Positions 14,717-57,298 of a stretch of 64,000 bases of DNA are shown piece by piece. A program made the position numbers and the translations under genes. The notes under the pieces were generated by a model, which was given only the letters and a program-made list of their open reading frames with translations, was not told where the DNA came from and did no database searches. How positions within the stretch are numbered: position 1 is the stretch's first letter; every line of letters starts with the position of its first letter. The stretch spans positions 124,001 to 188,000 of the forward strand of contig JADLGW010000028.1 in assembly GCA_020849105.1 (NCBI GenBank), read 5' to 3'. The stretch comes from Phycisphaerales bacterium. Its GTDB lineage: Bacteria; Planctomycetota; Phycisphaerae; Phycisphaerales; UBA1924.

Positions 14717-14767
14717 GGGTACCCCGCGACTCCGTCGCGGATTCCGCCACGGAGTGGCGGGCTACCC
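14717..14767. repeat. Palindromic repeat, full dyad (CCGCCACGGAG family)
   Basis: An imperfect dyad of about 51 bp: gggtaccccgcgactccg on the left against ccgccacggagtggcgggctaccc (split as two hairpin halves) on the right, with only a few mismatches between arms. It begins directly after the stop codon of the GGDEF gene. The right half of 24 bases recurs exactly at 32771-32794. It may also act as a transcription stop. Confidence 0.65.
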
Positions 14768-30671: not shown

Positions 30672-32681
30672 TCAGATCCGCGCCAGCCATTTGGCCCAGA
30701 TCGACAGCACCAGCAGCATGTACAGCCGCCGCGCGTGGTCGCGCCCCTTCCACGGCCAGAGCGACTGTGTGCCCGCGTCGTCGTGCTCGCGGAGCATCCG
30801 CTTCACGAACGCCGTGTTGATCATCGGCCCCACGCCCAGCCGGTCCGGCCCGAACGGCTCCGGCCCGGTGAGGTGATCGAGCAGGAGTTGCCGCATCCCG
30901 CCGAAGTCCGACCGGAACCACTCCCCGATCGGGATCGCGAAGCCCTGCTTCGGCCGGTCCACGATCTCCGCCGGAAAGTACTTCCTCGCCACGTCGCGAA
31001 GCAGGCCCTTGCGGCGGCCGCCGGGCGTCATCACGGCGTGCGGCGTCGAGTTGGCCGCGTCCGCGAGGTCCGAATCGAGGAAGGGAGCGCGGGTCTCCAG
31101 CGCGACCGCCATCGACGCCGTGTCGGCCTTGGTCATCAGGTCGTAGGGCAGGTAGAAGGCCTGGTCGACGAAGCGAGCCTGGTCGGGCGTGGGGAACGAC
31201 GCGGCCAGACACGGGCCGGCGTCGCCGTGGACCCGCCGCATCTGCTCGGTGGGGAAGACGGCGAGCAGGTCGGTGTACCCGCGGTGGCGTGCCGCTGCGG
31301 CCAGCCTGGCGAGTTTGGCCGCCCTTGACCGCGGCTCGCGTCGCGGCAGGACAGCCGACGGGAAGAGACGGAGCGCCCAGCGGAACCGCCGGAGCGGCCG
31401 GCACGCCCCGTACCGCTCGTACCCGGAGAACATCTCATCCCCGCCGTCGCCGGTCAGCGCGACCGCCAGGTGTTCACGCGCCGCACCGCTCACCCAATAC
31501 GTCGGCAGCAGGGAACTGTCGCCGAACGGAAGCCCGAGAGTCTCGATAAGCGGGGGCAGGTCATCGGCCGGGCGCGGGGCGGCCTCGACCGTGGCGTGGT
31601 CGGACCCGACGACCCCCGCGGCGGACGCGGCGGCGCCGGACTCGTCGTACCGGGCGTCGGGCATCCTCACGCACAGCGTTCGGAGCGTGCCCGCTTCCTG
31701 ACGCGCGAAGAGTGCCACGAGGGAGGAATCGATCCCGCCGGAGAGGAAGCACCCCAGCGGCACGTCCGCCTCCAGGCGGCGCCGGATCGCGGTGCGCAGC
31801 GCGGCCTCAGCGGCGCCCGCGTTCAACGCCGGCCCGGGCTCCCCGAACGGGACTCGACGCACCCAGGGGTTGGTTTCGTTGCCGTCGCCGGCGCGATGAA
31901 CAATCCGCCCGGGCGCGACCGGGTCGACATGGAGCAGCCGCATCGGCCCGCCGTGCCCGAAGGTCAGCCATTCGACCGTCAGCGCCGGCCAGTCCGCCGG
32001 GCGGTCGTCGCCCGGCCGCAGCGGAAGTCGCAGGAGCGCACCGGCTGTGCTGGCGAAGGCGGTCACGCCGCCCGGTGAGTCCAGGGTGTACAGCGGCTTC
32101 TCGCCGAAACGGTCGCGCACAAGGTGCAGCCCCCCGGCCGCGCCGTCCCACACGCCCACCGCGAACATCGCTTCGAGGCGGCGCGGCAGGGCCGCGCCCC
32201 ACTCCGCCCATCCGTGCAGCAGCACCTCCGTATCGCTGTGGTCCGTGGTGAACTCGTGACCCGCGGCCCGGAGTTCGCGGCGCAGGTCGCGATGGTTGTA
32301 GATGCAGCCGTTGAAGACCACGGCGATGGTGGTCTTGCCCAGCGCGGCGCAGCGCGGGCAGGGGCGGAGCGATCCGGGTAGGTCGGCTCTCCGAGCCGAC
32401 CCATCACCACTGTCGGCTCGGAGAGCCGACCTACCCAGCACCATCGGCTGCGCGCCGCCCGCGTGGTCGATGATCGACAGCCGGCGGTGCACCAGCGCCA
32501 CGTCCACCACCGTCCCGTCGGGCCGTGTCGCCCGGTGTCGGAACCGCCCCGCCCCATCCGGCCCGCGGTGCCTGATCGACTCGTCGAGCAGGTCGATCCA
32601 CGCCTCCGGGATTGCCATGTGCGGCGGGGGCGTGGCCTGCCCCGGCTGGTGAACCCTCAGGATGCCCGCGATGCCGCACAC
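30672..32681 (-). CDS. asnB: Asparagine synthetase (glutamine-hydrolysing) with in-frame palindromic insertion
   Basis: 669 residues from a GTG start that places the nucleophile Cys at position 2 (MCGIAGILR). The glutaminase domain (to about 260) has HRGPDGAG, RRLSIIDHAGGAQPM, VVFNGCIYNH and STDHSDTEVL-like motifs. The synthetase domain has the PP-loop CFLSGGIDSSLVA and LTGDGGDEMFSGYERY. It makes asparagine or, as in many sugar clusters, an amidated cell-surface product. Residues about 82-102 (LGRSALRAD...ARRADLP) are encoded by the palindrome at 32376-32436 and interrupt the glutaminase fold between two conserved strands. An extended upstream frame to 33500 is spurious. Confidence 0.88.
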   Translation of the reverse strand: MCGIAGILRVHQPGQATPPPHMAIPEAWIDLLDESIRHRGPDGAGRFRHRATRPDGTVVDVALVHRRLSIIDHAGGAQPMVLGRSALRADSGDGSARRADLPGSLRPCPRCAALGKTTIAVVFNGCIYNHRDLRRELRAAGHEFTTDHSDTEVLLHGWAEWGAALPRRLEAMFAVGVWDGAAGGLHLVRDRFGEKPLYTLDSPGGVTAFASTAGALLRLPLRPGDDRPADWPALTVEWLTFGHGGPMRLLHVDPVAPGRIVHRAGDGNETNPWVRRVPFGEPGPALNAGAAEAALRTAIRRRLEADVPLGCFLSGGIDSSLVALFARQEAGTLRTLCVRMPDARYDESGAAASAAGVVGSDHATVEAAPRPADDLPPLIETLGLPFGDSSLLPTYWVSGAAREHLAVALTGDGGDEMFSGYERYGACRPLRRFRWALRLFPSAVLPRREPRSRAAKLARLAAAARHRGYTDLLAVFPTEQMRRVHGDAGPCLAASFPTPDQARFVDQAFYLPYDLMTKADTASMAVALETRAPFLDSDLADAANSTPHAVMTPGGRRKGLLRDVARKYFPAEIVDRPKQGFAIPIGEWFRSDFGGMRQLLLDHLTGPEPFGPDRLGVGPMINTAFVKRMLREHDDAGTQSLWPWKGRDHARRLYMLLVLSIWAKWLARI
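32376..32436 (-). repeat. Palindromic element inside asnB, translated in frame
   Basis: Two perfect 25-bp inverted arms (32376-32400 and 32412-32436) around an 11-nt spacer. The core is gtaggtcggctctccgagcc. On the coding strand it reads LGRSALRAD, spacer residues, then SARRADLP. A near-copy in the same orientation and frame lies in metH (56281-56338). Confidence 0.85.
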
Positions 32682-32770: not shown

Positions 32771-32794
32771 CCGCCACGGAGTGGCGGGCTACCC
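32771..32794. repeat. Half copy of the CCGCCACGGAG palindromic repeat
   Basis: The 24 bases match the right half of the repeat at 14717-14767 exactly (core ccgccacggagtggcgg). It lies in the divergent gap between asnB and the YhhQ-type gene, 11 nt before the latter's ATG, so it may sit in that gene's leader. Confidence 0.65.
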
Positions 32795-53599: not shown

Positions 53600-56500
53600 T
53601 TACACGTTGAAGTATTTCGCCTCCGGGTGGTGGACGATGATCGCGCTCGTGGATTGCTCCGGGTCGATCTGGTGGTTCTCGGTCAGGCGGCAGCCGATGC
53701 GCCCGGGCTCCAGCAGCGTCCAGAGTTTCTCCTGGTCGCTCATGTCCGGGCACGCGGGATAGCCGAAGGAGTAGCGGCTGCCGAGGTAGCGCTGCGTGAA
53801 GAGGTCCTTGATCCGCGGCGCGTCCTCGCCACCGAAGCCGAGCTCCTGACGCATCCGCTTGTGCCAGAACTCCGCCAGCGCCTCGGCCGTCTCGACCGAC
53901 AGCCCGTGCAGGTAGAGGTAATCCTTGTACTTGCTGGCGGCGAACAGCGCCTTGGTCGCTTCGCTCGCCCGCGGGCCCATTGTCACGCAGTGCATGCCGA
54001 TCACGTCCACCTGCCCGCTGGAGCGCGGGCGGAAGAAGTCGCTGATGCACAGGCGGCGCTTGTCGGCCTGGCGCGGGAAGGTGAAGCGGAGTTTCTCCTT
54101 CAGAGCCCCAAGCGCGAGCGCGGGGTGTTGGTCGCCGGACCGGTCGCTGGCGCTCGCGGCTCCGTGGTCCCAGATGATGAGGTCGTCCCCCTCGGCGTTG
54201 CACGGGAAGTAGCCGTAGACCACGGCGGGCTGGAGCAGCCCCTCATCGCGGCACTTTGCCTTCAGCGACTCGAAGACCGGGCGGACCTCATCCTCCACCT
54301 GCGCCTCGTACTCGGCGTCGGTCCTGGCCCCCTTCTTGATCTGCCACTGCCCGCGGAAGAGGGCGATCGGGTTGATGAACGGGTACACGTCGTCCAGGCT
54401 GATGCCGGTCACGACGCGCGAGCCCCAGAACGGCGGCGCGGGCACGGGGTTGTCAGTCGCGACATCGCTCCTCACCCCGTCTCTTCGTCTCTCCGTCTCT
54501 CCGTCTCTCTGGTTTGCCGCCGCCAGTTTCTCCGCCCGGGAGCGGACGATCGTCTCCTCAGCCGCGGAGCGCTTGGACTGGCGGTCCTCGATCTCGCGGA
54601 AGAGGGTCTCCATGCGGTTGGTGACGACGTGGTCCATCACGCGGAGGCCGTCGAACGCGTCCTTGCCGTACAGGCACGCGCCCTCGTACGTCCTGCGCAG
54701 GTGCCCCTCGCAGTAGTGGCGAGTGAGGGCCGCCCCGCCCAGCAGCACCGGCGGGCGCGACGGCAGGGCGTTGAGTTCCTTCAGGTTGTCCTCCATCACG
54801 TTGACGGATTTGACGAGCAGCCCCGACATGCCGATCGCATCGGCGTTGTGCTCACGCCAGGCCTTCACGATGTCCGCGATGGGCTGCTTGATCCCCAGGT
54901 TCACCACCCGGAAGCCGTTGTTCGAGAGGATGATGTCCACCAGGTTCTTGCCGATGTCGTGGACATCGCCCTTGACCGTGGCCAGCACGATCGTGCCGCG
55001 CGACGACGCCCCGCCGACCTTCTCCAGGTGCGGCTCCAGGTGGCCCACCGCCATCTTCATCACCTCGGCGGACTGGAGCACGAAGGGCAACTGCATCTGT
55101 CCGGAGCCGAAGAGTTCGCCGACCGTCCTCATGCCGTCGAGCAGGTGGTCGTTGATCACGTCCAGCGGCGGGTACTTCGCCATCGCCTCGTCGAGCGTCG
55201 CGGCGAGCCCCTCCTTCTCGCCATCCACGATGTGGGCCCGCAGCCGCTCCTCCAGCGTCCGCGGCTTGATCTCCTTCTTTGTTGTCGCGGCCGCCGCGCC
55301 GTCGGGGAAGAGGGCGATGAAGGCCTGGAGGGGGTCAGAGCCCGGAGCGCGAGCGACGGGTGTTTCGGAGCCCGGAGCGCGAGCGACGGCTTCCTCTCCC
55401 ACTCGCTGGCGCTCGGGGCTCTGACGGCGGTCGTAGATCACGTCGAGCGCCGCGTCCCACTGCTCGTCCGGGATCTTGTTCCGCGGCAGGATCTTCGAGA
55501 AGTGCAGGATCGCGCTCGTGAGCCCGGCCGCCAGCAACTCGTGCAGGAAGACCGAGTTCAGCACGACCCGGGCCGCGGGCTTGAGCCCGAAGGAGACGTT
55601 CGAGAGCCCGACGGTCGTCTGGCACTCCGGGAAGCGGCGGGCGATCAGGCGCACGCCCTCGATGGTCTCCAGCGCGCTGCGCCGGTCGCTCTCCATGCCC
55701 GTCGAGACCGGAAGGACGAGCGGATCGAACAGCAGGTCGGCCTCGTCCATGCCGTGCACCCGCGTCGCTCGCTCGTGCGCCCGCTCCGCGACCGCGAGTT
55801 TCTTCGCGGCCGTGCGGGCCATCGAGTTCTCCTTGTCCTCGTCGATGGACCCGATGACCAGGGCGGCGCCGAACCGCTTCGCCAGGCGGCACACGGCGTC
55901 GAACTTCTCCTCCCCATCCTCGAAGTTGGCGCTGTTGATGATGCACTTGCCCCCGGCGTGGCGCAGCCCGGCCTCGATGGTCGCGACCTGCGTCGAGTCG
56001 AGCATGAGCGGCGCGTTCACCTGGCGGACCACGCGGCGCACCACCTCCGCCATGTCCCCGGCGTTGTCGCGCCCGGCGTAATCGACGTTCAGGTCCAGCA
56101 CATGCGCCCCGTCGTGCCGCACCTGCTCCCGGGCCAGCGACACGATGCCGTCGAAGTCCCCGCCCTCCAGCAGCCGCTTGAACGCCCGCGAGCCCGAGGC
56201 GTTCATCCGCTCCCCGATGATCAGGAACGACGTGTCCTGGCGGTAGTCCTGGACGGAGTAGAGCGAGGTGACGCCCTTGTGTAGGTCGGCGCTCCGAGCC
56301 GACACCGCGGAATCATCGGCTCGGAGAGCCGACCTACCCAGAGTCTCCACCAGCGCCGCGATGTGCGCCGGCACCGTGCCGCAGCACCCGCCGACGATGC
56401 GCACGCCCTCGTCCACGAACTTCGACAGCGCCTGGGCAAAGGGGCCGGGCTGGAGCGGGTACTCCGTCCGCCCCTCGACGAGCACGGGCAGCCCGGCGTT

Positions 56501-57298
56501 GGGCATGCACGAGACATACCGCCGCCCCCCTATCGCCCGCAGCACCGCCGGCGAACCCATGGCGGGCCAGTGCCGCGCCAGCCAGCGGACGTGCTCGGTC
56601 ATCTCCGTCGGGCCGGTCGCGCAGTTCAGGCCGAGCGACACGATCGGGTACCCGGCGAGCGCGGTCGCGGCCGCCGCGATCTCCGTCCCCAGCAGCATCG
56701 TTCCCGTCGTCTCGATCGTGACGGACACCATGATGGGGATATCGAGCGGCGTCCTGCCCGCCGCGTCGAGAGCGTCGAGGCACGCGTCGATCGCGCACTT
56801 GGATTGCAGCAGGTCCTGGCTGGTCTCGATCACCAGCGCGTCCACACCGCCCTCGATGAGCCCGGCGGCCTGCTCGCGGTAACTGTCGAGCAGGGTGGCC
56901 CAGTCGGTGTTGCCGAGCGTCACCAGTTTCGTCCCGGGGCCCATCGAGCCCGTGACGAAACGCGGCCGCTCCTTCGTGCTGAACGCTTCGGCCGCTTCGC
57001 GCGCGACCCGGGCCGCGCGCACGTTGAGTTCTCGCGCTTCGCGTGCGATCCCGAACTCCGCCAGCACCAGGCGGCTCGCCCCGAACGTGTCGGTCTCCAC
57101 CGCGTCGGCGCCGGCGGCCAGGAACGACTCGTGGATGGACCGGATCACGTCCGGGCGGGTGCGCACCAGGATGTCGGTGCAGTTCTCGCACCCGGCGTAG
57201 TCGCCCTCGACCGTCAGGTCGTGCGTGTGGATCGACGTGCCCATCGCCCCGTCGAAGACGAGGACCCGGCGCGACAGTTCGTCAAGGAACCTGCTCAT
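53600..57298 (-). CDS. metH: Cobalamin-dependent methionine synthase with in-frame repeat insertions
   Basis: 1232 residues, full-length MetH, which methylates homocysteine using methylcobalamin and methyltetrahydrofolate. Homocysteine domain 1-320 with zinc Cys in GLNCATGP and GGCCGT; pterin domain about 345-620 (FLIIGERMNASGSR, LDLNVDYAGRD); B12 cap and binding domain about 660-905 with the cobalt-ligand motif DVHDIGKNLV near 777; reactivation domain about 950-1232 ending in SRYSFGYPACPD and the conserved C-terminal block. Four extra stretches appear: about 319-339, 624-656, 924-940 and 1044-1065. Three of them fall at domain boundaries. Start ATG 57298 has only a weak site. It lies downstream of rpoC across a repeat-filled gap. 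Confidence 0.94.
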   Translation of the reverse strand: MSRFLDELSRRVLVFDGAMGTSIHTHDLTVEGDYAGCENCTDILVRTRPDVIRSIHESFLAAGADAVETDTFGASRLVLAEFGIAREARELNVRAARVAREAAEAFSTKERPRFVTGSMGPGTKLVTLGNTDWATLLDSYREQAAGLIEGGVDALVIETSQDLLQSKCAIDACLDALDAAGRTPLDIPIMVSVTIETTGTMLLGTEIAAAATALAGYPIVSLGLNCATGPTEMTEHVRWLARHWPAMGSPAVLRAIGGRRYVSCMPNAGLPVLVEGRTEYPLQPGPFAQALSKFVDEGVRIVGGCCGTVPAHIAALVETLGRSALRADDSAVSARSADLHKGVTSLYSVQDYRQDTSFLIIGERMNASGSRAFKRLLEGGDFDGIVSLAREQVRHDGAHVLDLNVDYAGRDNAGDMAEVVRRVVRQVNAPLMLDSTQVATIEAGLRHAGGKCIINSANFEDGEEKFDAVCRLAKRFGAALVIGSIDEDKENSMARTAAKKLAVAERAHERATRVHGMDEADLLFDPLVLPVSTGMESDRRSALETIEGVRLIARRFPECQTTVGLSNVSFGLKPAARVVLNSVFLHELLAAGLTSAILHFSKILPRNKIPDEQWDAALDVIYDRRQSPERQRVGEEAVARAPGSETPVARAPGSDPLQAFIALFPDGAAAATTKKEIKPRTLEERLRAHIVDGEKEGLAATLDEAMAKYPPLDVINDHLLDGMRTVGELFGSGQMQLPFVLQSAEVMKMAVGHLEPHLEKVGGASSRGTIVLATVKGDVHDIGKNLVDIILSNNGFRVVNLGIKQPIADIVKAWREHNADAIGMSGLLVKSVNVMEDNLKELNALPSRPPVLLGGAALTRHYCEGHLRRTYEGACLYGKDAFDGLRVMDHVVTNRMETLFREIEDRQSKRSAAEETIVRSRAEKLAAANQRDGETERRRDGVRSDVATDNPVPAPPFWGSRVVTGISLDDVYPFINPIALFRGQWQIKKGARTDAEYEAQVEDEVRPVFESLKAKCRDEGLLQPAVVYGYFPCNAEGDDLIIWDHGAASASDRSGDQHPALALGALKEKLRFTFPRQADKRRLCISDFFRPRSSGQVDVIGMHCVTMGPRASEATKALFAASKYKDYLYLHGLSVETAEALAEFWHKRMRQELGFGGEDAPRIKDLFTQRYLGSRYSFGYPACPDMSDQEKLWTLLEPGRIGCRLTENHQIDPEQSTSAIIVHHPEAKYFNV
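54102..54164 (-). repeat. GAGCCC-family dyad inside metH, reactivation domain
   Basis: Arms agagccccaagcgcgagcg and gctggcgctcgcggctc, inverted, around a GC-rich spacer; in frame it encodes residues near 1044-1065 (SASDRSG... ALALGA). Same family as 55336-55433. Confidence 0.55.
55336..55433 (-). repeat. GAGCCC-family repeat inside metH, between pterin and B12 domains
   Basis: Two direct copies of gagcccggagcgcgagcgac (55339-55358 and 55369-55388), followed by an inverted copy (gctggcgctcggggctc). The translation reads SPERQRVGEEAVARAPG, then a second VARAPGSD, and stays open. It occupies the linker between the pterin and B12-binding domains. Confidence 0.75.
56281..56338 (-). repeat. Palindromic element inside metH, homologous to the asnB element
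   Basis: Arms of 22-23 bp with one mismatch (left 56281-56303; right 56316-56338) around a 12-nt spacer. On the coding strand it reads LGRSALRAD, spacer residues, SARSADL: same frame and orientation as the asnB copy at 32376-32436. It lies in the linker between the homocysteine and pterin domains. Confidence 0.85.

Follow-up and report, generated by a model that had tools for sequence, protein, structure and literature searches.

In-frame REP doublets and embedded RAYT genes in core enzymes of Phycisphaerae

REP/RAYT systems are known for repeats located outside genes and for a transposase that, puzzlingly, is present in single copy and inherited vertically. The closest described relatives of the elements considered here are the GTAG REPs and REPINs, presented in sections of two reports as a tagged hairpin of ~23 nt found mostly in inverted pairs (PMC3733652, PMC3116915). 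According to sections of one of these reports (Di Nocera et al. 2013, PMC3733652), a GTAG-type REP carries GTAG or a related tag 5' of a 20-40 bp palindrome, and an extragenic location is usual without being required, as intragenic units are listed as well. Among them are intragenic GTAG dimers of 20-30 aa, with tRNA synthetases among the hosts and uvrA showing two-fold insertions, while the palindromic elements RPE-4/6 are classed in the same text under a CGTC tag.

The window, a stretch of 64,000 nucleotides from a Phycisphaerales bacterium, contains a palindrome of ~60 bp in each of two genes, asnB and metH, which an initial annotation had reported from the sequence and which we recovered as inverted pairs (Table 1). 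The arms common to both pairs are 23 nt long, with GTAG followed by GTCGGCTC-TCC-GAGCCGAC (arm sequence GTAGGTCGGCTCTCCGAGCCGAC, hereafter REP-A), and beyond the GTAG tag each arm folds as its own hairpin. As initially claimed, the asnB arms are perfect (25 nt, 100% complementary); the metH arms, for which a single mismatch had been given, do have one mismatched paired position and differ in one terminal base too. The REP-A unit occurs four times in the window with at most three mismatches, compared to 0.00 occurrences expected from shuffles, so that a chance repeat is ruled out as the origin of these units. Read on the minus strand, both copies encode L-GRSALRAD...SAR(R/S)ADL, the peptide originally noticed, and the frame is indeed the same in both, although a shared orientation says little where the element is a palindrome. 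With its tag 5' of the palindrome, REP-A corresponds to the published description of a GTAG-type REP (PMC3733652, in part), and the window copies belong to an already described kind, intragenic GTAG doublets. Judged by their sequence, the two pairs can be classified as REPINs (REP doublets), the putative non-autonomous partner of RAYT transposases.

Table 1. REP-A features of the window and their host genes.
Feature	Coordinates	Strand	Description
REPIN-A copy in asnB	32376..32436	.	two inverted GTAG-tagged REP units, 11-nt spacer
REP-A unit in asnB	32376..32400	+	(GG)GTAG + hairpin GTCGGCTC-TCC-GAGCCGAC
REP-A unit in asnB, perfect inverted partner	32412..32436	-	
Asparagine synthase (glutamine-hydrolysing) family gene	30672..32681	-	host of asnB REPIN
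REPIN-A copy in metH	56281..56338	.	reads GRSALRADDSAVSARSADLH
REP-A unit in metH	56281..56303	+	1 mismatch vs consensus
REP-A unit in metH, inverted partner	56315..56337	-	1 mismatch
metH, cobalamin-dependent methionine synthase	53603..57298	-	host of second REPIN

Both copies had been interpreted as in-frame insertions, and the two host proteins differ on this point. In AsnB, the REPIN lies in the glutaminase domain between QPM and the VVFNG strand, at a site where the protein is ~32 aa longer than 7ylz (counting the insert and further unaligned residues), and it is a true extra insert. In MetH, the REPIN-encoded residues 320-340 lie within the linker joining the homocysteine and pterin domains, as first proposed, and are modelled by AlphaFold with a confidence of ~55-58 (model mean 88). 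This linker measures 64 residues from GGCCGT to GER-N, within the 58-72 residues found in 29 relatives, which rules out a pure insertion and indicates that the REPIN took the place of linker residues. A second variable stretch of MetH (window 55313-55420) contains a direct repeat whose translation is VARAPGSETPVARAPGSD; UvrA and LeuRS of the same genome have APGS-type peptides resembling it, which perhaps represent another in-frame repeat family. In another genome, a REPIN-A is in frame in an apparent MetH (L188:6836-6858) at a position different from that of the window copy.

Genome-wide searches yielded 73 BLAST matches of REP-A in 3.29 Mb, counting both orientations of each palindrome, and ~100 units per strand in a pattern search with up to three mismatches, compared to 16-22 in a reversed control. 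These many further copies of the arm include 23 inverted pairs, counted in the regions fetched around matches, and 19 of these doublets lie inside genes whose frame remains open across the insert. Of the other four, one is placed at the 3' end of a nuo-like gene, and the remaining three are either intergenic or close to the end of a contig; units that occur singly are mainly found between genes. Hosts named by NCBIfam are MetH, asparagine synthase, CysRS, IleRS, ThrRS, SerRS, GlnRS, UvrA, PutA, glycine C-acetyltransferase, a RarA-like AAA ATPase, SucD, SdhA, MnmG, GspE, topoisomerase VI B and RimO, the remaining two being GluRS, identified by eye, and a protein without family match. Aminoacyl-tRNA synthetases thus make up 6 of the 19 hosts, an excess with P ~2e-7 relative to our own estimate of 1.4% of coding DNA but only P 0.04 on the assumption that copies are retained in core genes alone, and we therefore do not claim that synthetases are targeted. 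Net additions relative to PDB homologues amount to 20 aa in CysRS, 21 in GlnRS, 16 in SucD and 20 in ThrRS. The proposal of a selfish palindrome tolerating in-frame insertion is thus supported by numerous genomic copies, which mostly keep the frame of proteins unrelated to each other and which homologues lack. One fixed insertion phase offers no explanation, since the right ends of the doublets fall in all three phases.

Other genomes contributed 15 REP-A doublets at the loci compared, 7 of which are in frame; the relatives compared belong to other genera and are mostly represented by MAG-level data. Database records with REP-A derive mostly from Phycisphaerae, Phycisphaerales or Phycisphaeraceae, and the exact 23-mer was found in Phycisphaerae-type MAGs, in the Neisseriaceae genome Alysiella crassa (L146, L190) and in one cyanobacterial MAG (L201), with no occurrence in Rickettsia among the database records searched. 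Further arrangements were seen at several loci. Glutamyl-tRNA synthetase carries a REPIN-A in identical site and frame in two genomes (L079:4229-4290, L192:455-477), at L091:3962-4380 and L069 RimO contains two in-frame REP-A insertions and IleRS seems to have a second REP-like insert, and a tandem REP-A array with a 42-bp period over its first four units (L084:13371-13550) is read in frame as VGSESRPTPESAIG repeats within a UbiD-family decarboxylase gene.

One reading register is favoured among the doublets. Across this genome and its relatives, REP-A is read as GRSALRAD in 21 doublets and as VGR(L/P)SEP in 5 (binomial P ~0.001), the third frame holding a TAG. A second family, REP-B (GGTGGCACCGCTCTCCAGAGCGGTG), has 10 of 15 doublets in frame; doublet length is a multiple of three in all ten coding cases vs one of five non-coding ones, and all ten coding doublets are read as GGTALQSG even though other frames are also stop-free. 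REP-A and REP-B share a register, with GGT first. This preference would be expected if the peptide were a functional module used by its hosts and spread by selection for the peptide rather than the DNA. We consider this the least likely of the readings weighed here, as the hosts have no relation to one another, the insertion sites vary, translation of the C-terminal REP-A arm uses each of the three frames, and a permissive, glycine-containing loop accounts equally well for the register bias; selection for such a loop is one explanation of the constant register. The same data bear on a second possibility, namely that translational bypassing, RNA processing or an intein-like process skips or eliminates the hairpin, as RNA or as protein, and leaves the host protein unchanged. 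Strongly conserved enzymes such as CysRS would tolerate their inserts most easily in this way. Such bypass or removal seems very improbable given that the frame is open through every counted insert and that bypassing would not need coding REP-B doublets to be multiples of three. Units of a further family (GGGTACCCCGCCACTCCGTGGCGG type) are present in the window as a doublet (14717-14767) and a single unit (32771-32794), and also in frame in this genome's LeuRS.

The window's genome (~94% complete) has seven Y1 transposase matches, two of which lie within other genes. The host of the first is its only valyl-tRNA synthetase (ValRS), where inverted REP-B units sit on either side; the second is inside an RdgB/Ham1 gene, with units of a third REP family on its flanks. 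No REP-A-flanked RAYT was found in this incomplete genome, no REP-A within the fetched flanks of its free-standing RAYTs, and no convincing GTAG/GGAG hairpins beside the latter. Its own embedded RAYTs have other REP families on their flanks. The lack of a detected REP-A-flanked RAYT, along with a pattern of in-frame insertion in unrelated conserved proteins typical of RPEs, would suit a separate RPE-like family of selfish palindromes, unrelated to RAYTs and copying by a different route. We regard such a family as unlikely, because each arm folds as a hairpin with a GTAG tag and because the identical 23-mer, inverted, flanks an open RAYT in a relative. In that relative (L133), REP-A, the RAYT and an inverted REP-A share a single uninterrupted frame with leucyl-tRNA synthetase (LeuRS), at a site equivalent to Thermus LeuRS residues 236-239 on the border of the editing domain. 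REP-A DNA on both sides of a LeuRS-internal RAYT was also seen in L143, and in L208, L209 and L215 the RAYT has REP-A-type peptides on its flanks, in the last case at a second LeuRS site. The window organism's LeuRS is without a RAYT, and REP units of a fourth family are in frame at the site used by the RAYT of relatives. The likeness to Rickettsia palindromic elements suggested initially hence applies to behaviour and not to membership, REP-A forming a GTAG-tagged REPIN whose unit flanks RAYTs in relatives.

Embedded RAYTs are frequent within this lineage. Within the family, 163 genomes were searched and 76 RAYT matches listed, 51 of them in open frames of at least 600 aa, and the loci read had as hosts LeuRS (14 at the first site, 2 at the second), ValRS (11, all at one site), KBL and MiaA. 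Class-wide, 109 of 397 genomes were positive, with PurH added as a host and LeuRS recurring. Outside the class, the identical query found mostly free-standing frames, 8 of 53 reaching 600 aa (hand count) compared to the 51 of 76 in the family. The embedded RAYTs are not free-standing, as the frame is uninterrupted and shared with the host. For the NCBIfam model REP_Tyr_transpos (NF047646, cut-off 80 bits), the RAYT embedded in this genome's ValRS alone scores 82.5, and a LeuRS-embedded one (P0002) falls just below at 75.5 bits. HVH and Tyr662/N666/P667 (YxxxNP) are invariant in 11 ValRS-RAYTs. The Pfam scan of ValRS- and LeuRS-RAYTs returned only Y1_Tnp and synthetase domains, with no splicing (Hint) domain, which also argues against removal of the insert. 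The AlphaFold model of ValRS with its RAYT is poor overall (mean pLDDT 50.8); its RAYT segment reaches ~55-86, in the order beta-alpha-beta-beta-alpha-beta-alpha. With this poor model, the Foldseek matches listed were ValRS and its editing domain and included no transposase, and the RAYT had no match among PDB sequences. A chimeric assembly is an unlikely source of ValRS-RAYT, as one genome carrying a RAYT in ValRS is a single contig (G113).

Sequence comparisons suggest that these RAYTs evolve with their hosts. Embedded RAYTs are under purifying selection (dN/dS ~0.08-0.25 in pairs with measurable dS), and their dS mostly resembles the value for the host gene, an argument for a long shared inheritance. 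The RAYT tree clusters by host site, with 9 changes for a minimum of 7 and a shuffled mean of 19.8. In two genomes (G113 and G115), the left REP-B, the RAYT, the right REP-B and ~110 bp beyond are nearly identical, and ValRS directly upstream of this segment is ~77% identical, which makes it probable that this ValRS site recently received the segment by transfer or conversion. The identity block starts at the REP on its left edge but does not end at one on its right, and ordinary recombination may thus have been responsible. In each of seven genomes checked, ValRS had a single copy over the cut-off, so that the interrupted gene presumably has to supply ValRS function.

Overall, we consider it highly probable that both window palindromes are REPIN copies moved by a RAYT, that those keeping the frame are the ones that survive, and that the RAYT itself entered core genes in the same way. 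The RAYT, an HUH/Y1-type REP-associated tyrosine transposase, would presumably cut and join single-stranded DNA at REP hairpins, and REPIN copies landing in genes would be lost if they break the frame. Copies that keep the frame in a loop or linker would persist and be translated as ~16-21 extra or replacement residues. The RAYT gene, with inverted REPs on either side, would likewise settle in frame within LeuRS, ValRS, PurH and a small number of further core enzymes. There it would pass down together with the host gene, be maintained by purifying selection and undergo occasional replacement or transfer at that same site. This scheme supposes, from sequence, that REP elements are mobile by single-strand transposition, that inserts are translated and that RAYT-bearing host enzymes are active. 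We lean, with less confidence, towards a broader view in which the Phycisphaerae RAYT is a translated internal domain of the sole LeuRS or ValRS, co-inherited with it, re-entering the same site in further lineages and seeding in-frame coding REPINs in additional core proteins. If true, this would be a mobile system resident in coding sequence, whose loss would endanger an essential enzyme. Repeats and transposase in frame in essential enzymes would provide a simple, testable reason for the persistence of REP/RAYT systems, along with dozens of natural experiments on synthetases enlarged by ~20 to >200 residues, and a caution for genome annotation, where such proteins read as chimeras.

Compared to known systems, REP-A resembles the GTAG REPs and REPINs, as partly consulted (PMC3733652; Bertels and Rainey 2011, PMC3116915), in its tag, its GC-rich hairpin, its dispersed, multicopy inverted doublets (23 pairs plus single units) and its role as a repeat flanking RAYTs, the latter seen in relatives. 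It departs from them in location, since most doublets are coding rather than extragenic and sit mostly in core enzymes, and in that the RAYT gene itself is in frame within core genes. Embedded RAYTs are not described in the sections of these two reports that we consulted, and a search of an incomplete body of open-access literature brought up no account of synthetases with an embedded RAYT. Rickettsia palindromic elements also form palindromes in frame in unrelated proteins, but REP-A differs in sequence, in its GTAG rather than CGTC tag, in phylum and in its link to RAYTs. The embedded transposases share with RAYT/TnpA-REP proteins (NF047646, PF01797) the HUH motif, the catalytic Tyr region, flanking inverted REPs and an apparently vertical inheritance; known RAYTs are free-standing genes, whereas these are internal segments of LeuRS, ValRS, PurH and others. 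Finally, inteins with homing endonucleases likewise place a DNA-acting enzyme in frame in essential conserved genes and transfer to the same site, yet embedded RAYTs are without splicing domain, appear to be retained in the protein, and occupy loops and domain borders.
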